From Thermoanaerobacteraceae bacterium (lineage in GTDB: Bacteria > Bacillota > Thermoanaerobacteria > Thermoanaerobacterales > UBA4877): 34,139 nucleotides of DNA. A program made the position numbers and the translations under genes. Shown here piece after piece: positions 23,991 to 34,139 of the stretch; the stretch's first letter is position 1, and each line of letters starts with the position of its first letter. The stretch covers positions 1-34,139 of the forward strand of contig JASEJQ010000022.1 in assembly GCA_030016635.1 (NCBI GenBank), in the 5' to 3' direction. Under the pieces are notes generated by a model, which saw only the letters and a program-made list of their open reading frames with translations, did not search any database and was not told the DNA's origin.

Positions 23991-24338
23991 TTATATAATT
24001 CTGTTATCCTTATCTACAAAAACTACTTTAGGTTTATAGTTTTCAAGCTCTTCCTTATCATATATCCCATAGCTTATGATTATTACAACATCTCCTGCCT
24101 GGGCCAGCCTGGCAGCTGCCCCATTGAGGCAGATTACGCCGCTGCCGGCCTTGCCGGGTATGGCATATGTCTCAAACCTCTCCCCATTATTGAGGTTTAC
24201 TACCTGGACCTTTTCATTGGGAAGTATGTCGGCCTCCTTCATCAGTGTTTCATCTATGGTTATGCTGCCCATATAATTGAGATTGGCCTCTGTAACCACT
24301 GCCCTGTGTATTTTGGACTTCATCATCTCTCTAAGCAT
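23991..24338 (-). CDS. panD: Aspartate 1-decarboxylase (PanD)
   Basis: PanD makes beta-alanine from aspartate for pantothenate synthesis. It is a pyruvoyl enzyme made as a proenzyme that cleaves itself before a serine. [20 protein letters not shown] is the standard opening, and the YMGS cleavage site gives Gly24-Ser25 when counted from ATG 24338, the canonical position. This is why I prefer that start over ATG 24344. The substrate-binding Lys9 (in MMKSK), Tyr58-type region (FETYAIPG) and [12 protein letters not shown] follow. The 115-residue length is normal. The start overlaps the panC stop by 8 bases, and a perfect hairpin follows the gene. Confidence 0.95.
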
Positions 24339-25185
24339 CTTCATACCCCCAGAGGATATTATCTATGAGTCTCGTTTTGCCGACATACACAGCCAATGCC
24401 ACAAGGGCCTTATCCTTTATAACTTCCAGGTCCTCTAATGTGCAGGGGTTTGCAATGGATATATATTGGATGCTGGTATATGGTTTTGAAGATATCATTA
24501 CCTCCATGACTTTCTTTATATTATCAGGGTTTCTCTCTCCTTTATCCAGCATGCCCTTAGCCTTTAAAAGTGATTGATAAAGTACGGGTGCCACTTTCCT
24601 TTCTTCATAAGATAGATAAGAGTTTCTTGAACTCCTGGCCAAGCCGTCCTCTTCTCTTACTGTGGGTGCTCCGATTACTTCAACAGGTATATTTAAGTCC
24701 CTTACCATCCTCTTTATTACAACAAGCTGCTGATAGTCCTTTTGCCCGAAGACAGCTATGTCAGGCTGGATTATGTTAAACAGCTTGCTTACCACTGTGG
24801 CTACGCCGGTGAAGTGGCCTGGCCTGAATGTACCGCACAAATTGTCTGTAATTTTTTCTACCACCACATGGGTAAGCAGCTCTTCCGGATACATCTCCGG
24901 CACCTCTGGTGCGAATACAACGTCTATACCTACATCTTCACAGAGCCTCAGGTCTCTTTTCATATTTCTCGGGTAACTTTCATAATCCTCATTAGGGCCA
25001 AACTGTATAGGGTTTACAAATATGCTCACCGCAACGAAGTCTGATTTCTCTCTTGCCATCCTCATGAGAGAGAGATGGCCCTCATGGAGGTAGCCCATGG
25101 TTGGTACCAGTCCTATCCTTTTGCCCTCTTTTTTAGCCTTTCTCACAATGCTCCTTACCTCATTGATCGTCTTTATGCATTCCAT
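24331..25185 (-). CDS. panC: Pantothenate synthetase (PanC)
   Basis: PanC joins pantoate and beta-alanine with ATP to give pantothenate. The 284-residue protein has [15 protein letters not shown] with the nucleotide-binding HxGH at 34-37, the [13 protein letters not shown] pantoate segment, FGQKDYQQL and [11 protein letters not shown] (the KMSKS-like loop). AAAGGAGGATT precedes ATG 25185, and panD follows at once. panB (ketopantoate hydroxymethyltransferase) is not in the window, so the pathway is split or relies on another locus. A GGCCWGGCC copy at 24816 lies inside. A structured leader upstream suggests attenuation. Confidence 0.95.
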
Positions 25186-25350
25186 AATAAAAAATCCTCC
25201 TTTTCTGGGAGGGAAAATAAAAGGCCTTTCCCGCGCAGAGAAAGACCATCATACTCTATCTTTCCCGTCCCGGTCTAAAATAAGATCCAAGCGGTATGCT
25301 ATTAACATACTCCTTGCGGTCAGGCTCATAAAAGATGCCCACCATCTATA
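25186..25350 (-). promoter_or_regulatory. panCD leader with terminator-like attenuator and short open frame
   Basis: On the minus strand a TATAAT (about 25350) is followed by roughly 150 nt of leader. It contains a 29-codon open frame (25345-25256), whose peptide starts MVGIFYEPDRKEYVNS, and a stem GTATG/CATAC with AAG/CTT outside it. Next comes a stem GGTCTTTC/GAAAGGCC (25223-25247) with TTTTATTTT directly after. A second pairing, GGGAAA with TTTCCC, would overlap the terminator stem. The shape is that of a regulated leader, such as the pan motif RNAs reported upstream of pan genes, but I cannot confirm that consensus. Confidence 0.45.
25214..25247 (-). terminator. Attenuator-type terminator in the panC leader
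   Basis: On the minus strand, GGTCTTTC (25240-25247 reversed) pairs with GAAAGGCC (25223-25230 reversed), with a 9-base loop and one G-U pair. The U-rich TTTTATTTT follows at 25214-25222. It lies upstream of the panC start, so it can only work as a leader attenuator or as the end of an upstream RNA. Confidence 0.6.
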
Positions 25351-25916: not shown

Positions 25917-27212
25917 TCATTCTTCTCCCAACAATTTCCTACCTTTATTGTAGAACTCGTCCATAAGGTCTTCAGGTACAAATATCCCCCCTGTAGCCCA
26001 TGCCATATGTATACCTTTCCCCCTTATACCCAGAAGACCGGCTGCAGCCGAGGGCTCTACCTTTATTCCCTCCTTATCCTTTAATATGGCCAGCATTCTG
26101 TAGAGGTCATCGTCATTTACTGTAAATATGCCGCCTACAAGCCTTTCTACTATCCTGCCGGCGAATTTAGATGGCCTGCCTACGGCCAGGCCATCGGCCT
26201 CCGTCCTGCCATCCAGACCAAAGTCAAATACACTCACCCTGTCATGCAGGCCAGTCATAAGTCCTAAAAGCATACATGGAGAATGGCTGGGCTCTGCAAA
26301 ATAACATCTTACATTGTCACCGAACACATGCTTCAGGCCGAAGGTTATGCCTCCCGGTGCCCCACCCACACCGCAGGGTATATACACGTTTATCGGGTTA
26401 TCTTCCGATATATTTATACCCATGTCATCCAACTGTTTTTTTAGCCTCAGTGCGGCAACACTGTAGCCGAGGAATAGGTCCTTTGAGTTTTCATCATCTA
26501 CAAAATAGTCCATAGGATTTTGAGAGGATAACCTCCTGCCCTCCTCCACTGCCTTAGAGTAGTCTGATGTATACTCTATTACATTTACACCTCTCTCCCT
26601 CAAGAGCCTCTTCTTCCACTCCTTTGCATCTGCAGACATATGTACTGTCACTTTGAACCCTAAGGCAGAGCCCATTATACCTATGCTGAGTCCCAGGTTA
26701 CCCGTAGAACCAACAGATATTGAGTAGTTACTAAAAAATTCTCTGAATTTCGGTCCAGACATAATGGAGTAGTCATCTGTAATATTTAGCAGGCCATTGT
26801 TTATTACCAGTTCTTCTGCATGTTTTAAGACCTCATAGACCCCTCCCCTGGCCTTTACCGACCCGGCCACAGGAAGCTCATTGTCGCATTTAAGATACAG
26901 CGGCCCCTCAAAAGCCTCTCCAAATCTTTTCTTTAATTCCTTAGCAACATCAGATATCTCTACCAGTCTTGACTCAATTATGCCATCCTCCACCTTCGGA
27001 AAGAGTTTCTTAATAAGCGAAGCAAACCTTTTCCATCGTGCCTCAGCATCAAGTATATCATCAAATGTCAGAGGTAAATTAGGTAATATTTCTTTTGCCA
27101 TGCCAACCTCTGGATTTTTCCAAAAGACCGGCTTACAATGGGTTACATCCTTTAAGAGTGGGTATTCATTTAACCATGTCTCCATTGGTTTCCCAAGGAC
27201 TATGTTATTCAT
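25917..27212 (-). CDS. dsdA: D-serine dehydratase (D-serine ammonia-lyase)
   Basis: This PLP enzyme converts D-serine to pyruvate and ammonia. The 431-residue protein is of normal length. It shows LPVAGSVKARGGVYEV with the PLP-binding Lys120, the phosphate-binding SVGSTGNLGLSIG, the VKVEPSAAAG-like end (GIKVEPSAAAGLLG) and the N-terminal VTHCKPVFWKNP typical of DsdA. GGAAGGAG precedes ATG 27212. It is a single-gene unit: it follows the terminator of the hydantoin operon and has its own promoter. One GGCCWGGCC copy is at 26184. In context it could handle D-amino acids, but no direct link to the hydantoin operon is shown. Confidence 0.93.
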   Translation of the reverse strand: MNNIVLGKPMETWLNEYPLLKDVTHCKPVFWKNPEVGMAKEILPNLPLTFDDILDAEARWKRFASLIKKLFPKVEDGIIESRLVEISDVAKELKKRFGEAFEGPLYLKCDNELPVAGSVKARGGVYEVLKHAEELVINNGLLNITDDYSIMSGPKFREFFSNYSISVGSTGNLGLSIGIMGSALGFKVTVHMSADAKEWKKRLLRERGVNVIEYTSDYSKAVEEGRRLSSQNPMDYFVDDENSKDLFLGYSVAALRLKKQLDDMGINISEDNPINVYIPCGVGGAPGGITFGLKHVFGDNVRCYFAEPSHSPCMLLGLMTGLHDRVSVFDFGLDGRTEADGLAVGRPSKFAGRIVERLVGGIFTVNDDDLYRMLAILKDKEGIKVEPSAAAGLLGIRGKGIHMAWATGGIFVPEDLMDEFYNKGRKLLGEE

Positions 27213-27409: not shown

Positions 27410-27429
27410 ATGTGCTGGTACCACCACAT
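27410..27429. repeat. 20-bp near-perfect palindrome upstream of dsdA
   Basis: ATGTGCTGGTACCACCACAT reads the same on both strands except at positions 6 and 15. It stands just outside the operon terminator and upstream of the dsdA promoters, where a dimeric regulator could bind. Confidence 0.4.
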
Positions 27430-27435
27430 AAGGGA

Positions 27436-27510: not shown

Positions 27511-28236
27511 TTAATCCCACCATTTACGTACCTTCTCTGGTGGCTTCATATACGTGAGCCTGCTGTGTTTCACACCCATTAATATATATGCCTCTAACAT
27601 TTTTAAAGCGGCAAAGGCCGGGTCAATAACCGGTACGTCATAGCCTGCCTCTTTTAGCCGATTTTGAAGTGATCTGGCCAGGCCTACCATGCCTGTACAG
27701 CCCAGTATAATCACGTGTACATCATCTTCTTTTATAGCATTAACACTTTCATCATATAAGGCATTCTCTAACTTGCTTCTATCACCCAGCTCTAATACGG
27801 GTATATTTACATACCTTATGGACTTTAGTCTATCCTCAAGCCCCATCCTCATTATGGAGTCTTCCAGCATGGGCAAAACATTGGGTAGGACAGTAACAAT
27901 GCCCAAGTGTTGTCCCAAACCCGCTGCCAGGAGTATAGATGGTTCAAATCCACCAACGACAGGTATATCCACAATTTCTCTTGCAGCCTTAACCCCAGGG
28001 TCACCAAAGCAGTCACTTATAACCCCATCAAAGCCCTCTTCCTCGGCCTTCTTCACCTTTCTTAATATATCAGGTACAGCAAGGGCCTCATCATATTCGC
28101 ACTCTATAGATGCAGGACCATAGTCAAGATTTTCTGTCTCGATTTCTACTCCTTCTGACGCAAATCCTTTAAATTCTCTCACAGTATCTTCATTGAGTGC
28201 CTTTGATATAATTGGTATTATGACCTTTATCTTCAT
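27511..28236 (-). CDS. Aspartate/glutamate/hydantoin racemase family protein
   Basis: The 241-residue cytosolic protein has the two-cysteine acid/base pair of the Asp/Glu/hydantoin racemase family: Cys76 in ISDCFGDPGV and Cys180 in ILGCTGMVGL. The N-terminus MKIKVIIPIISKALNEDT and the late VIDPAFAALKMLEAYI are those of the hydantoin racemase branch. It probably interconverts the enantiomers of a 5-substituted hydantoin or related amide before ring opening by the other operon products. AAAGGAGTGAAATT precedes ATG 28236, and a hairpin lies in the 80-base gap upstream. It is the last gene of the operon. One GGCCWGGCC copy is at 27676. Confidence 0.85.
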   Translation of the reverse strand: MKIKVIIPIISKALNEDTVREFKGFASEGVEIETENLDYGPASIECEYDEALAVPDILRKVKKAEEEGFDGVISDCFGDPGVKAAREIVDIPVVGGFEPSILLAAGLGQHLGIVTVLPNVLPMLEDSIMRMGLEDRLKSIRYVNIPVLELGDRSKLENALYDESVNAIKEDDVHVIILGCTGMVGLARSLQNRLKEAGYDVPVIDPAFAALKMLEAYILMGVKHSRLTYMKPPEKVRKWWD

Positions 28237-28267
28237 AATTTCACTCCTTTACTTTTATTTTTTATTT

Positions 28268-28289
28268 GGGGTGGGAGTGTACCCACCCC
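28268..28289. terminator. Perfect GC-rich hairpin between HyuA-like and racemase genes
   Basis: GGGGTGGG (28268-28275), loop AGTGTA, CCCACCCC (28282-28289) form a perfect 8-bp GC stem. On the minus strand an A-rich run follows rather than T, so it is not a classic terminator. It may separate mRNA segments or protect the upstream one. Confidence 0.45.
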
Positions 28290-28316
28290 TCTATAGGAAG
28301 TTATGGAGAATGAAAA

Positions 28317-29870
28317 TTAACCTGCAAGATTTCCGGCAGCCTTTATTTTTATCCTGGTGGCATTGCCGGGTAGATACGCCAGCGGTATGTCCTCTCTTTC
28401 TACTATTTCTATAGTATCTCTTTGAGCACCTGCTTTTACGCATTCCTCTATAGCCATCTCTTCAGCCTGCCTCAATGCCTCGGCCCTGCTCATGCCATCC
28501 AAAGAGAATATCCTATCTATCTCTGCACCGACCTGCGCTATGGCTACCCCTATGGCATTGGCAACCTCATAATGCTGAGGCCTTATTACCTCGCTGCATC
28601 CTTTCAATGTCTCCGGCAATAGTACGCTACCTCCACCTACCAGTATGAGAGGTATATCACCAGCTGTCGTCTTTATCTTATCTATATTGTCTTCAACCAT
28701 TTCTTTTATTTTATATAAAGCTTTTTCAACCAGGCCTTTATCCAGTCCTTTTACTTTCTCGGGATTACCCATTACGGCCAGGCCGCCTGCCACGGCCACA
28801 TCAGACGCAGTCAGTGTGGACCCGCCAAAGACAAGTCCCTTTTCTTCCAGCTTGTAACCTACGCTGTCAGGACCCACTGTCACTATATCGTCCTTTTCCC
28901 TTACAATGCTACCGCCACCCAATCCAATGGATATGAGATCTGGCATACGGAAATTAGTCCTCACTCCACCAATCTCCACAGCCATGGCAGACTGTCTTGG
29001 AAAGCCATTCACCAAAACTCCTATATCCGACGTAGTACCTCCCACATCTACCACTACAGCATTTTTTGCCCTTGAGAGATATGCTGCCCCTCTCAAGCTA
29101 TTAGTAGGCCCACTGGCTATTGTCATTATAGGGTATCTCATGGCATATTCTACCGACATTAAGGTCCCATCGTTTTGGGCTAGATATAAGACTGCTTCAA
29201 TCCCCTTTTTCTTTAAAGCTTCCTGAAATCCACTGGCCAGCTTTTTAATCACCCCGGCCAAAGCGGCATTTAGTATGGTCGCATTCTCTCTTTCGATAAG
29301 GCCGATGCTTCCTATTTCATGGGAAACAGAAATATCAACCCTGTCCCCCAATCTTTCCTTAAATATCTCTGCCACTTTGTCTTCGTGCTCTGTGTTAACC
29401 GGAGAGAACACCGATGTTATTGCAATTGCATCAAAATCCCCGTCTATCTCTTCAGCTATCTTATCTATTTCATCATAGTCAAGCCCATACAGTTCCTCGC
29501 CGTTAAACTCATATCCGCCACTAATTATATAGTATTTCCTGCCTATGGCATCAATTAGGTCTTGAGGCCACCCCACCATTGGTTTTATGGCCATGGTAGC
29601 AGGTTTACCTATTCTAACTACTGCTACTCTTCTAAGTCCCTTCCTCTCTACTATGGCATTGGTACAGTGGGTTGTGCCCAACATAACATAATTTATATCC
29701 TTTGTATCAATATTTTTCTGGATTAATACCTTATTCAACGAATTATATATCCCTGAGGTTACATCCTCAGTAGTTGGAGATTTGGCTTTAGCAACAACAT
29801 TGTTATTTTCGTCCAGTATCACGGCATCTGTATTTGTGCCTCCTACATCTATCCCAATCCTGTAGTTCAT
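28317..29870 (-). CDS. Hydantoinase/oxoprolinase HyuA-like protein
   Basis: The 517-residue ASKHA-type protein shows the phosphate loops RIGIDVGGTNTDAVILDENN (4-23) and AVVVDVGGTTSDIGVLVNG (about 270), plus GLGGGSIV and VGGGSVLLPETL near the C-terminus. Proteins of this type form the ATP-dependent A subunit that opens hydantoins or 5-oxoproline. The classical partner HyuB (about 550 residues) is absent from the operon, and the usual long A subunit (about 650-700) is shorter here. This form therefore resembles the stand-alone HyuA-like proteins that travel with DUF917. The start overlaps the DUF917 stop (ATGA). The exact substrate is unknown. Confidence 0.8.
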   Translation of the reverse strand: MNYRIGIDVGGTNTDAVILDENNNVVAKAKSPTTEDVTSGIYNSLNKVLIQKNIDTKDINYVMLGTTHCTNAIVERKGLRRVAVVRIGKPATMAIKPMVGWPQDLIDAIGRKYYIISGGYEFNGEELYGLDYDEIDKIAEEIDGDFDAIAITSVFSPVNTEHEDKVAEIFKERLGDRVDISVSHEIGSIGLIERENATILNAALAGVIKKLASGFQEALKKKGIEAVLYLAQNDGTLMSVEYAMRYPIMTIASGPTNSLRGAAYLSRAKNAVVVDVGGTTSDIGVLVNGFPRQSAMAVEIGGVRTNFRMPDLISIGLGGGSIVREKDDIVTVGPDSVGYKLEEKGLVFGGSTLTASDVAVAGGLAVMGNPEKVKGLDKGLVEKALYKIKEMVEDNIDKIKTTAGDIPLILVGGGSVLLPETLKGCSEVIRPQHYEVANAIGVAIAQVGAEIDRIFSLDGMSRAEALRQAEEMAIEECVKAGAQRDTIEIVEREDIPLAYLPGNATRIKIKAAGNLAG

Positions 29871-30961
29871 TTAGAAGCCACCCCCTCATAGCGTTCCTCA
29901 ATAGGTACATAGTCAATATCATATCCGAAATATCTAGGCCCTACCAATTTTAAGCCTTCCTCTGTCCTCCACTGCTCGTTACATGGTATACCTATAACTA
30001 TACCTCTATAACCGTACTTTAACATCTCTGTGGTTATCGGTTTACCTGTGTCCGGGTCTAATACCGATATTAGGTCAGGAACTGAAGCCACAACGTTGTC
30101 ATCTACCCGTGCCACCAGATTTTCATTCTGAAATTCTATTTCCAGCTTTTTCCCTTTATACTCATCTATTCCATCAAAGAATGCATTGCCCCTCGCAAAA
30201 CCACCCATTGTCCGCCTTTGCACATCCGTAATCTTGCCCTTAAAGAGGAGATAACCATGGGTAATCTCCAGTATCTTATCTAAAGGGTTCTCATTTCTTA
30301 AACCTGCTTCTCTTATGGCCTTACCTATGGACTCGGCCAGTGTCATTGTACCCCTTACTGCCCCCTCTTTTAATTGTTTCCCCAGCATTGGATAAATAGC
30401 AATCATGGAACTGCCACCCATTTCTACAGTTGCTGTTCTGGCAAGTCTTTCAGACCATTTATTGGTTATAGTCTGGAGGAGCATCTTATTGCCCTTTTCG
30501 TCGCTAATACTCATAGGGGTGGAAGAGATGCCATGAAGTGTAAAAGTCACCATCTGCAGTTCAGGGAAAGCCCTGCCCATACCGTCGGCATCCACTACTG
30601 GAAGGTTAAGTCTTGCAGCTAAGGCAAGGGGTATCATTGAATTTAATCCACCTGCCTCTATGGAAATAGTGGCATAAATATCTTTACCAAGGTAATTCTT
30701 TAAAAGCTCAAAAGCCCAGAATGGTTCCTCCCCATTAGGTATTTTTTCAACCAGCACCGTCGGTGCCCCCATCATAGCAGATGGGACCACCAGGGCATTA
30801 TCCGGCACCTCATCTACATCTATTAATGTTACAGGTCCGTAGTCCTCTATGGCCTGCAGGGCCATTAATTTACCCACATAGGGGTCTCCTCCACCACCGG
30901 TACCCAGAATAGGTGCAGCAGTGGCAATGTCTTCTATTGCCTGTGCATTCAGTTTACGCAT
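29867..30961 (-). CDS. DUF917 family protein (S-methyl-thiohydantoin desulfurase-type)
   Basis: The 364-residue protein has the DUF917 opening: IATAAPILGTGGGGDPYVGK. Next come ALVVPSAMMGAPTVLVEKIP, LPVVDADGMGRAFPELQMVT and the C-terminal DLISVLDPDTGKPITTE. I recall the family's newer name as S-methyl-thiohydantoin desulfurase-like, from memory. It regularly occurs with HyuA-like proteins and NCS1 permeases. It should act in the cytosol on a hydantoin-related compound. An earlier in-frame ATG exists at 30991, but AAAAGGAGG lies six bases before ATG 30961, and the upstream permease ends at 30975. The true start is therefore 30961. Confidence 0.82.
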   Translation of the reverse strand: MRKLNAQAIEDIATAAPILGTGGGGDPYVGKLMALQAIEDYGPVTLIDVDEVPDNALVVPSAMMGAPTVLVEKIPNGEEPFWAFELLKNYLGKDIYATISIEAGGLNSMIPLALAARLNLPVVDADGMGRAFPELQMVTFTLHGISSTPMSISDEKGNKMLLQTITNKWSERLARTATVEMGGSSMIAIYPMLGKQLKEGAVRGTMTLAESIGKAIREAGLRNENPLDKILEITHGYLLFKGKITDVQRRTMGGFARGNAFFDGIDEYKGKKLEIEFQNENLVARVDDNVVASVPDLISVLDPDTGKPITTEMLKYGYRGIVIGIPCNEQWRTEEGLKLVGPRYFGYDIDYVPIEERYEGVASK

Positions 30962-30974
30962 AATTGTCCTCCTT

Positions 30975-32240
30975 TTACTTTTTTTCTTCATCCAAAGCAG
31001 TGGCTGGTTTTAATACATAATACAATACCAAATAGCATACCATTGAAGATATTATGCCATTTATGGCTGAAATACCCATCTTCATAAACAATGCAGCGGT
31101 AAAGCCTATAACCCACGATGCTATTCCTATCCAGTTGATGTCTGCCACACCGGCTCCCCACATATCCTTGTTTCCTCTTTTGCATATCCAATAATCGGCA
31201 ATCATACTGCCGGCAATAGGTGGTATGCCTGCAGTAAGCACAGTAAGGAAAGAAGTAAAATAGTTCAGTATGCCCATGACGGCAAGGACAGTACCTATGG
31301 CACCGGCTATACAGGTCATAAGTGGTCTGAGTTTATCCTCCATGTTAAAAAGACTTACAATGGCCAGGCCACCTGAATAGGCATTTACAGTATTCGTGGT
31401 CCATGTAGCTAAAATCAAGATTACAGAACCCACAAAACCCATCCCCAATTGAGCTAAGGCAATTGTTATGTCAAAGGTACCGGCTACTACAGTGAGGAGT
31501 GATCCAACTACAAGTAGAAACATCCCCGCTGGCCAGACACCCACAAGTCCTGATATCGTAGCATCATTTCTACTTTTTGCATACCTTGAAAAGTCAGCGG
31601 CAATGACACCTCCTACTGCAAACCCTCCCACGGCCAGGCCGATAGAATAACTCCAGGAGTAATGTTCTTTTGGCACATAATTTATTATATTATCCACTCC
31701 AAATTTTTTAAGAACAAGTATAAGACCTGCTACTGAAAGTACTATAAGAGCTGGTATGGCAATATAATTTAAGTATTCCAGTGCCCTATAGCCATATACA
31801 GCAGTCATTAGCATAATAATACCCCATACCAGTCCGCTTAACCATACAGGTATATTAACCCCAAGCCACATGTTCATTATTTGAGAAAATGCAGCTCCAC
31901 ACACACTCGCCTGTACTCCAAACCATCCTATACAGGATATTGCAAGGATAGTAGAGATTACAAATCGTGCCCCCTGCCTGCCAAAAGCCGATGAGGATGT
32001 AACCACAGTGGGAACACCTAAGTCGGCACCCTCCATCCCCTGAAATGTCATAAATACGACTATTATTGTATAGCCTATAGCTCCAGCAATTATAGCCTCT
32101 AATAGTGGCATGCCCTGAACTATCACACCCCCTACCATCAAAGATGGTACACATATCATTGCTCCCGCCCATACAAGGGCTATACTATACCATGGCCTCC
32201 TTTCTGACTCTGGAATTGGATCCAATGCATGCTGTTCCAT
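30975..32240 (-). CDS. NCS1-family cytosine/purine/hydantoin-type permease
   Basis: A membrane transporter of about 421 residues with 11-12 hydrophobic segments. It shows the NCS1 hallmark regions WAGAMICVPSLMVGGVIVQG, VTSSSAFGRQGARFVIS, FAVGGVIAADFSRYAKSRND and PPIAGSMIADYWICKRGNKD. NCS1 proteins carry cytosine, purines, allantoin, thiamine or hydantoins (Mhp1) with Na+ or H+. Given the downstream genes, hydantoin uptake is a fair inference. ATG 32258 is in frame, but ATG 32240 has GAGGGGAG at proper spacing and gives MEQHALDPIP, so I choose it. It is the first gene of the sigma-54 operon. Two GGCCWGGCC copies lie inside (31362, 31632). Confidence 0.87.
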   Translation of the reverse strand: MEQHALDPIPESERRPWYSIALVWAGAMICVPSLMVGGVIVQGMPLLEAIIAGAIGYTIIVVFMTFQGMEGADLGVPTVVTSSSAFGRQGARFVISTILAISCIGWFGVQASVCGAAFSQIMNMWLGVNIPVWLSGLVWGIIMLMTAVYGYRALEYLNYIAIPALIVLSVAGLILVLKKFGVDNIINYVPKEHYSWSYSIGLAVGGFAVGGVIAADFSRYAKSRNDATISGLVGVWPAGMFLLVVGSLLTVVAGTFDITIALAQLGMGFVGSVILILATWTTNTVNAYSGGLAIVSLFNMEDKLRPLMTCIAGAIGTVLAVMGILNYFTSFLTVLTAGIPPIAGSMIADYWICKRGNKDMWGAGVADINWIGIASWVIGFTAALFMKMGISAINGIISSMVCYLVLYYVLKPATALDEEKK

Positions 32241-32283
32241 AATAACGACTCCCCTCATATATTATTTTTTAGCAGATATCCTT

Positions 32284-32300
32284 AGCAAAAATCGTGCCAA
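32284..32300 (-). promoter_or_regulatory. Sigma-54 (-24/-12) promoter of the hydantoin operon
   Basis: The minus strand reads TTGGCACGATTTTTGCT. The GG at -24 (32297-32298) and the GC at -12 (32285-32286) are separated by 10 bases, as required, and nearly every consensus base (TGGCACG-n4-TTGCT) matches. Transcription should begin near 32273. It lies between the sigma-54 activator gene and the permease. Confidence 0.9.
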
Positions 32301-32332
32301 AATAAAAAACCCACAAATTAAATATTTGCAGG
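32301..32332 (-). terminator. Terminator of the sigma-54 activator gene
   Basis: On the minus strand, CCTGCAAAT (32324-32332) pairs with ATTTGTGGG (32310-32318) through a 5-base loop, with two G-U pairs, followed by TTTTTTATT (32301-32309). It ends the regulator mRNA only one base before the sigma-54 promoter, so the two units stay separate. Confidence 0.8.
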
Positions 32333-32349
32333 CTTACTCAAAGTTTTAA

Positions 32350-32386
32350 ATTCTCATGCGACTATATCATTCTCATCTCACTGAGA
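32350..32386. promoter_or_regulatory. Candidate upstream activator sites for the sigma-54 regulator
   Basis: ATTCTCAT occurs twice as a direct repeat (32350-32357 and 32369-32376), and a palindrome TCTCA-C-TGAGA overlaps at 32376-32386. The cluster lies about 50-90 bases upstream of the -24 element, the normal zone for enhancer sites, and abuts the stop codon of the activator gene. The sites are inferred from repetition alone. Confidence 0.5.
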
Positions 32387-34139
32387 CTAAATAACATTAT
32401 TTATTCCATGATTTATATTATTTTCTGTCATATATTTCTTAATCCATCTATAGAGTGTAGCACGACTTATACCTAAATAATTAGCAATCTGTTCTTTATT
32501 TTGATACCCAAATATGTTTATTGCCTTCAGAAGCCTGTCTCTCTCCTTAGTTTCTGTATCTTTAATATCAGATGACATACCTTGATTTAAATTCAAAAAA
32601 GCATGTGGGAGAGACTCCTTTGTAATGTATTTGCTGTTCTCCATCACCACTGCATACTGGATGGCATTCTGGAGTTCTCTTATGTTGCCTGGATAACTAT
32701 ACCGCATAATCACTTCCATGACATCTTCTTTAAAACCCATGATCTTTTTATTTAATTTATTACAGTAGTATCTTAAAAAATAGTCAGCCAGCATCTTTAT
32801 ATCTTCTTTCCTTTCACGAAGAGTAGGGAGGTAAAGCTGAGAGACACCTATCCTGTAGTAAAGGTCAGCCCTGAACTCCCCTGAAGCTATCATCGCCTCT
32901 ATATTTTTGTTAGTGGCAGATATTATTCTCACGTCCAGCCTCACAGGTTTGATATCGCCAAGCCTTGTAACGCTTTTGTCTTCCAGAACCCTCAAGAGCT
33001 TTGCCTGAAGGTGTAAAGGCATGTCTCCTATCTCATCTAAAAAAATAGTGCCTCCATCAGCCAGTTCAAACTTACCTGGTTTACCGCCCCTTTTGCCGCC
33101 TGTGAAAGCACCTTCTGCATATCCAAATAGTTCACTTTCTAAAAGGGTCTCTGGTATTGCAGCACAATTAATTGGAATAAAAGGCTTTCCCCTCCTTGGA
33201 CTGTTATTATGGATAGAACGAGCAAACATTTCTTTACCGGTTCCGCTCTCTCCTCTAATCATCACATTCAAATCGGATATAGCAAGCTTTTTTGCCTTTA
33301 TTATAGCCTCATTTATAACGGCACTTTTCCCAACAATATCATCAAAGTCATAGTCCTCATTGTCTCCTATATAATTTTTGGTTACTCTATGGGCTTCTAT
33401 AATATCCTGGAAAGTCACAACTCCACCTGCACATTTATCTCCACTTAAAAATGGTGTTATGTCCGCTACAAAAGTCTCTCCATTGTTTCCAAAAAGCTTG
33501 TAACTTTTAAAGCTGCATCCATCCTGCATAACTTCTTTCAATGGGAAATTCTCAAAAATTTCATTTATATTATGTTTGCACATAAAATTAATTTTTAATA
33601 AAGACTCCGCCCTGCTGTTGACATGTATTATATTGCCCTCTTTATCAAATGCGACTATCCCCGAGTCTATAGATTGGATTATGCCATTTAGTTGGGTATT
33701 TAAATCCTCAATTTTATTTATCATGTGGGATTCATTTATTTTTGAAGTTATATAATCTACTAGTTTTTCCATAAGAAGGGTAAGTTTTTTCTGTTCTATA
33801 ATAGCATACAGCTTTTGTTTTCTGGTAAATGCCACAAGAAATATAACTCCTTCTGTCCTTCCTCTGTAGCTTATTGGATAGCCAATTACCGCTTCAAGGT
33901 GGCATAAAACCTTCGATGGACACATATTACAAAGTTCAAAAAACATCGGATCATCTACAACAATTTTTTCATTTTCTTTAATGACAAAATTTCCTAAGAG
34001 TGAATCTTTTGCAATCTTACCTATGTAGAACTTATAGTCATTGGTAGCCGTAATAACTTCCATGTTACTATCAATTATGAAAATATCAAGATTGACATTG
34101 TATGAAAGGACATCACAGAACTGCTCAAGGTCGTCCTTC
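32387..34139 (-). CDS. Sigma-54-dependent transcriptional activator with PAS domain (5' end outside the window)
   Basis: This enhancer-binding protein very likely activates the -24/-12 promoter next door. Counting from the in-frame ATG at 34063, a sensory region with CNMC and a nearby Cys54 (45-54) is followed by a PAS domain (about 125-225). The AAA+ core has Walker A GESGTGKE (271-278), the sigma-54-contacting GAFTGG (318-323) and Walker B GGTIFLDEIG (337-346). A Fis-type helix-turn-helix ends the protein (NKEQIANYLGISRATLYRWI). The frame stays open from 34063 to the right edge, reading for example LEQFCDVLSYNVNLDIFIID, so the true start lies beyond the window and 34063 is not the start. 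The inducer is not known. Confidence 0.92.
   Translation of the reverse strand, partial: KDDLEQFCDVLSYNVNLDIFIIDSNMEVITATNDYKFYIGKIAKDSLLGNFVIKENEKIVVDDPMFFELCNMCPSKVLCHLEAVIGYPISYRGRTEGVIFLVAFTRKQKLYAIIEQKKLTLLMEKLVDYITSKINESHMINKIEDLNTQLNGIIQSIDSGIVAFDKEGNIIHVNSRAESLLKINFMCKHNINEIFENFPLKEVMQDGCSFKSYKLFGNNGETFVADITPFLSGDKCAGGVVTFQDIIEAHRVTKNYIGDNEDYDFDDIVGKSAVINEAIIKAKKLAISDLNVMIRGESGTGKEMFARSIHNNSPRRGKPFIPINCAAIPETLLESELFGYAEGAFTGGKRGGKPGKFELADGGTIFLDEIGDMPLHLQAKLLRVLEDKSVTRLGDIKPVRLDVRIISATNKNIEAMIASGEFRADLYYRIGVSQLYLPTLRERKEDIKMLADYFLRYYCNKLNKKIMGFKEDVMEVIMRYSYPGNIRELQNAIQYAVVMENSKYITKESLPHAFLNLNQGMSSDIKDTETKERDRLLKAINIFGYQNKEQIANYLGISRATLYRWIKKYMTENNINHGINNVI

Follow-up and report, generated by a model that had tools for sequence, protein, structure and literature searches.

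The window analysed here is a complete contig of 34,139 bp (C29; JASEJQ010000022.1) from the 2.35-Mb genome of a Thermoanaerobacteraceae bacterium, which is assembled in 114 contigs (GCA_030016635.1). It carries a gene for a sigma-54 activator followed by four genes, for an NCS1-family permease, a DUF917 protein, a short HyuA-like ATPase and a racemase. The locus probably serves the catabolism of a hydantoin-like cyclic amide, as an operon under the control of its own sigma-54 activator. The regulatory part of this reading (a sigma-54 promoter, a dedicated activator and an enhancer), drawn from sequence comparison, is well supported.

Organization of the locus

All locus genes discussed are on the minus strand. 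The order of transcription is sigma-54 activator, terminator, -24/-12 promoter, NCS1 permease, DUF917, short HyuA, hairpin, racemase and terminator, as follows.

32387..34138, minus: sigma-54 activator (bacterial enhancer-binding protein) with PAS, AAA+ and Fis-type helix-turn-helix (HTH) domains; Sigma54_activat 231.9 bits, PAS_8, HTH_8; N-terminus cut by the contig end
32375..32380, minus: imperfect half-site TGAGAT
32370..32375, minus: predicted TGAGAA half-site of the enhancer, at -76 relative to the -24 box; the motif comes from 19 related loci
32351..32356, minus: predicted TGAGAA half-site of the enhancer, at -57 relative to the -24 box; same motif
32335..32340, minus: possible degenerate half-site TGAGTA, overlapping the terminator base; weak
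32307..32335, minus: intrinsic terminator of the activator gene; 12 pairs, fold -12.1 kcal/mol, z -3.1
32284..32299, minus: sigma-54 promoter TGGCACGATTTTTGCT; 0 mismatches, predicted transcript start near 32273
30975..32258, minus: NCS1-family permease; PF02133, 108.6 bits
29867..30991, minus: DUF917/S-Me-THD-like protein; PF06032 and PF20906 (S-Me-THD_N/C), 200.7 and 249.5 bits
28317..29870, minus: short HyuA-like ATPase, 517 residues; PF05378 and PF01968 (Hydant_A_N/Hydantoinase_A), 146.6 and 126.3 bits
28268..28289, minus: strong hairpin between hyuA and the racemase gene, GGGGTGGG-TACACT-CCCACCCC, without T tract; intergenic fold z -3.7, 0/200 shuffles
27511..28236, minus: Asp/Glu/hydantoin racemase family; PF01177 (Asp_Glu_race), 147.9 bits
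27437..27469, minus: operon terminator (AACAGGC...GCCTGTTTTTG); fold z -4.5, 0/200 shuffles

The positions, the strand and the families that the initial annotation had assigned to the four operon genes were all borne out by family scans. Judged from good Shine-Dalgarno sequences, the true start of the permease is likely the ATG at 32240, behind GAGGGGAG, and that of DUF917 the ATG at 30961, behind AAAGGAGG. In correction of the initial annotation, the activator gene is truncated by the contig end, and since the conserved activator protein sequence extends upstream of the ATG at 34063, that codon is internal. The stable hairpin at 28268-28289 could set the expression of the racemase apart.

Sigma-54 promoter

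The -24/-12 promoter had been described as nearly perfect. In fact, TGGCACGATTTTTGCT matches the consensus at 16 of 16 positions and is the sole perfect match in the window. The activator gene was found directly upstream and the terminator beside the promoter, as had been proposed, with the T tract abutting the -24 box. A lack of rpoN, raised beforehand as an objection, does not hold, the gene being encoded on contig 22 (PF04552, 203.5 bits). As the relaxed consensus TGGCAYNNNNNTTGCW has 31 matches genome-wide versus 3 for the reversed control, and as about 20 sigma-54 activator genes accompany rpoN, the genome has a real sigma-54 regulon.

A set of 86 loci was assembled for comparison, 80 from a scan of genome contigs with a DUF917 alignment and 6 from relatives within the order. 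Loci with a linked activator belonging to the same group number about 22; in them, the highest-scoring -24/-12 match upstream of the operon reaches 10.5-13 of a maximum of 13, with p<=0.005 relative to shuffled sequences in nearly all cases. No comparable site was found upstream of the NCS1-DUF917-HyuA operon in some 60 loci without such an activator; the few activator-less loci with a moderate score have the site inside genes or far from gene starts. Within the 20-kb loci, the site at the operon is essentially the only one. Promoter and enhancer are present where the orthologous activator is linked and missing where it is unlinked. This phylogenetic footprinting supports the initial proposal of a sigma-54 promoter and an adjacent cognate activator with enhancer repeats between them.

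A sigma-70-like match (TTGCTA-16-AATAAT, 9/12) overlaps the -24/-12 site, and expression of the operon might be constitutive, or arise by read-through out of the activator gene, the -24/-12 match being merely decorative. This is highly improbable, since sigma-70-like matches occur in the region at chance level (21 versus 24.7), a terminator separates the activator gene from the operon, and conservation of the -24/-12 site goes along with that of the activator.

The activator and its relatives

The activator has an AAA+ domain, an HTH and a GAFTG loop (GAFTGG in the translation). The best named model is PrdR, the activator of proline reductase, but its score of 430 bits fails the equivalog cut-off of 795. 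The recognition helix is conserved among the activators of relatives (typically ISLATLYRWLKKY) and takes a slightly altered form in the window (ISRATLYRWIKKY). A tree was built with 14 further activators from the genome; one fragmentary row (L082) is unplaced, and the operon-linked activators including that of the window lie on one side and the others on the opposite side (support 86/85). The activator near the operon of L021 was not retained as a member of the group: it is 33% identical, 885 residues long and distantly related, and no site was found upstream of the L021 operon.

In most relatives, the activator is followed by a second DUF917 gene; in the window, this side lies beyond the contig end. 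In L017, L018, L025, L027, L040, L090 and L100, this second DUF917, with about 30% identity and in some cases accompanied by a second HyuA, is on the other side of the activator.

Thirteen loci without activator, mostly from Bacillaceae (including L038, L046, L048 and L049), have a short gene upstream of the permease, which on inspection of its sequence is read as a TetR-type regulator. The same enzymes would therefore be placed under different regulators.

Phased direct repeats upstream of the promoter

Sequences of 260 bp preceding the -24 box were compared among 19 non-redundant activator-linked loci. TGAGAA is the most enriched hexamer (63 copies versus 5.9 expected, z 23), present in 17 of the 19 loci and mostly arranged as direct repeats. 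Pair spacings of up to 45 bp number 43; of these, 17 measure exactly 10 bp, 10 are 20 bp, 6 are 30 bp and 3 are 40 bp (36/43). L017 and L100 have similar phased arrays with single substitutions. The density of TGAGAA is 4.31 per kb upstream of activator-linked permeases versus 0.56 per kb upstream of unlinked ones, an eight-fold difference, and upstream of the latter the number of phased pairs is zero. A copy every 10 bp, exactly one DNA turn, would place the copies on one face of the DNA, in what appears to be an unusual type of enhancer. A non-exhaustive search of the literature found no sigma-54 enhancer described as an array of direct repeats with 10-bp phasing. A palindromic enhancer, for which the window offers the dyad TCTCAGTGAGA, is unsupported across loci, where direct repeats dominate.

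The array was also sought at the scale of whole genomes. In 15 operon-bearing genomes, 16 of 16 matches to three phased copies (at most 1 mismatch) are at the operon, as assigned by comparing their positions with the locus coordinates, and the reversed pattern has 0 matches. Across 398 genomes of the phylum, there is one occurrence of the strict pattern; this match, in G206, is outside the operon, at the start of a gene that has neither the activator nor operon genes beside it, and was attributed to chance. Because all 16 matches are at the operon and the pattern arises once by chance in 398 genomes, the array is specific, which suggests a single-target regulator.

In the window, the narrow space between the stop codon of the activator gene and the terminator accommodates two exact TGAGAA copies, 19 bp from each other, as well as two near copies. 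The candidate enhancer repeats of the initial annotation do exist and belong to the array type conserved in relatives, although they are weak in the window itself.

HyuA and DUF917

The predicted model of HyuA (predicted local distance difference test, pLDDT, 89.6) has a fold like those of ATP-dependent N-methylhydantoinase, caprolactamase, and acetone and acetophenone carboxylases, with template modelling (TM) scores of about 0.75. The glycine-rich ATPase motifs are kept in invariant alignment columns. Fold and ATPase motifs are thus alike in the window protein and in the HyuAB family, which comprises ATP-dependent hydantoinase, 5-oxoprolinase, caprolactamase and acetone carboxylase. However, the usual HyuA has about 690-730 residues and is accompanied by HyuB, whereas the window HyuA, with 517 residues, is about 180 shorter and has DUF917 as its partner. 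The genome has a single HyuA, and HyuB (PF02538) is absent from this genome and from six related ones (seven searched). An apparent HyuA fusion of 1848 residues in L018 was dismissed as due to a run of N in the assembly.

DUF917 adjoins HyuA in 75 of the 86 loci, often with overlapping genes, and the simplest reading is that it takes the place of HyuB. Its predicted model (pLDDT 90) matches only 2o3i, itself a DUF917 protein, in the structure comparison, and the idea that DUF917 is a fold relative of HyuB was abandoned. A second, distant DUF917 copy in the genome of L024 (G000:C92, 9019-9894) contains internal stop codons and is possibly a pseudogene; an intact relative of this copy is found in G001.

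Pfam and NCBIfam name the DUF917 family after thiohydantoin and S-methyl-thiohydantoin desulfurases. This raises the alternative of a pathway for a sulfur compound, in which DUF917 would be a thiohydantoin-type desulfurase and HyuA would open the resulting hydantoin. We consider such a pathway quite improbable: the window protein reaches only 99 bits, far below both equivalog cut-offs (440-450), and no ergothioneine-type genes were recognised around the operon, as judged from common neighbour families alone.

Permease and racemase

The closest solved structures to the permease are those of the cytosine permease CodB (130 bits) and of Mhp1 (66.5 bits), with which it shares the NCS1 fold and the aromatic sandwich residues. 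Mhp1 contacts hydantoin through Trp117, Gln121 and Asn318 (PMC4195764). Counterparts of these three residues are present in the window permease (WFGVQ and WTTN), Trp220, regarded as optional, being replaced by Phe, and the WFGxQ motif is common to nearly all operon permeases. In CodB, cytosine is read by Gln105 (PMC9379551), a position occupied by Cys in the window permease. The protein is therefore mixed, nearer CodB in overall score and Mhp1-like in its Gln and Asn.

With these scores, and with 206.7 bits against the cytosine permease model (cut-off 326), it is conceivable though unlikely that, under the same sigma-54 control, a CodB-like permease imports a pyrimidine or nucleobase-like ring, and that HyuA and DUF917 act on a derived lactam or imide. 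The Cys at the position of CodB Gln105 and the counterparts of the Mhp1 residues argue against a nucleobase-like ring, and the racemase and HyuA families point to rings of the hydantoin type.

In the racemase, both catalytic cysteines (DCFGDPG and LGCTGM) align with those of the solved hydantoin racemase 3qvj, in which a Cys is replaced in the 3qvk and 3qvl structures. Because these cysteines and the Mhp1-type ring-contact residues of the permease are conserved, a hydantoin-like substrate is likely but unproven. The hydantoin-type ring suggested by the initial annotation thus agrees with the protein families, with the ATPase fold of HyuA, and with the cysteines of the racemase and the contact residues of the permease, while its attribution stays inferential.

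The DNA of the permease, from the predicted transcript start to the gene end (32271-30979), is 87% identical to that of L018 and L022. For the DUF917, HyuA and racemase genes, the identity to the same loci is 64-69%, and for the activator it is 71% over a short part. In genus g5, the permease at the same place in L017 and L019 shares only about 30% identity with the window permease, and is hence unlike that of L018 and L022. The permease gene alone has thus been exchanged horizontally and recently between lineages, as a unit under an otherwise diverged operon.

Neighbouring features

The D-serine ammonia-lyase gene directly downstream (25917-27212; TIGR02035, 603 bits) was considered as a member of the operon and rejected, as a terminator and a sigma-70-like promoter intervene and no such gene is near any related operon; it apparently has its own promoter. 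Between the operon terminator and this gene, the near-palindrome ATGTGGTGGTACCAGCACAT (27410-27432, minus strand) is a possible operator. Further along, an Rfam 'pan' motif (RF01749, 50.5 bits; 25261-25344, minus strand) lies directly upstream of a panC-like gene (24331-25185).

Discussion

In the proposed mechanism, the inducer, presumably the substrate or a product, would be sensed by the N-terminal part of the activator. The activator would dock on the TGAGAA half-sites upstream and drive RNA polymerase-sigma-54 at the -24/-12 promoter, while the terminator would prevent transcription of the activator gene from running on into the operon. The NCS1 permease may import the ring compound and the racemase may interconvert its enantiomers. 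The short HyuA ATPase, with DUF917 replacing HyuB, would open or otherwise break the ring, yielding an amino acid and nitrogen.

Several observations weigh against this picture. No gene adjoining the operon names the substrate, the permease is by score nearer the cytosine permease CodB than Mhp1, and DUF917 scores 98.6 (NF058529) and 99.9 (NF058532) bits versus cut-offs of 440 and 450. On the regulatory side, the tree support that parts the operon activators from the others is moderate. The enhancer of the window is short, has a 19-bp spacing that does not follow the 10-bp phasing, and is nearer the promoter than in relatives; TGAGAA pairs of this kind number 13 genome-wide versus 8 in the control, a weak signal in the window alone.

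A sigma-54 activator beside its operon is of the ordinary kind. What is unusual is the phased direct-repeat enhancer and the HyuB-free pair of HyuA and DUF917. In the Clostridiales sigma-54 regulons (Nie et al. 2019, PMC6615313), the activator similarly stands beside a single target operon with several upstream half-sites and a -24/-12 promoter, and the targets likewise serve the catabolism of amino acids and related compounds. The NCS1/DUF917/HyuA operon is not in Table 1 of that study. The enhancer motifs given in its main text are TGT-N10-12-ACA inverted repeats, whereas the relatives of the operon have phased TGAGAA direct repeats.

Hydantoinase-type genes have been predicted under sigma-54 elsewhere, as here: N-methylhydantoinase A (COG0145) is a sigma-54-enriched target class in Bacilli (PMC12316311), and rhizobia have hydantoinase operons with RpoN boxes (PMC5979394). 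The relevant passages of these studies deal with gene-class statistics or with other hydantoinase operons, and describe no activator, enhancer or DUF917 partner. In Clostridium difficile R20291, an expression table gives permease, DUF917 and hydantoinase as the products of CDR20291_1615-1617, which have consecutive locus numbers (PMC12915319); these are the same three annotated products as here, the likeness resting on annotation.

More generally, we put forward, as a tentative proposal, that a widespread and previously unnamed group of sigma-54 activators docks on helically phased direct repeats, not palindromes, and controls a ring-opening enzyme of two parts, a short HyuA ATPase and DUF917, without HyuB.

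DUF917 with a short HyuA forms a large family across Firmicutes, Chloroflexi and archaea, for which we know of no assigned reaction. The operon offers a handle both on the role of DUF917 with the short HyuA and on the reading of a direct-repeat enhancer by a sigma-54 activator. The activator, the array and the promoter make up a compact unit that, in the genomes checked, apparently serves one target only; a reporter could therefore help to find the inducing compound by screening and, through it, the identity of the substrate.

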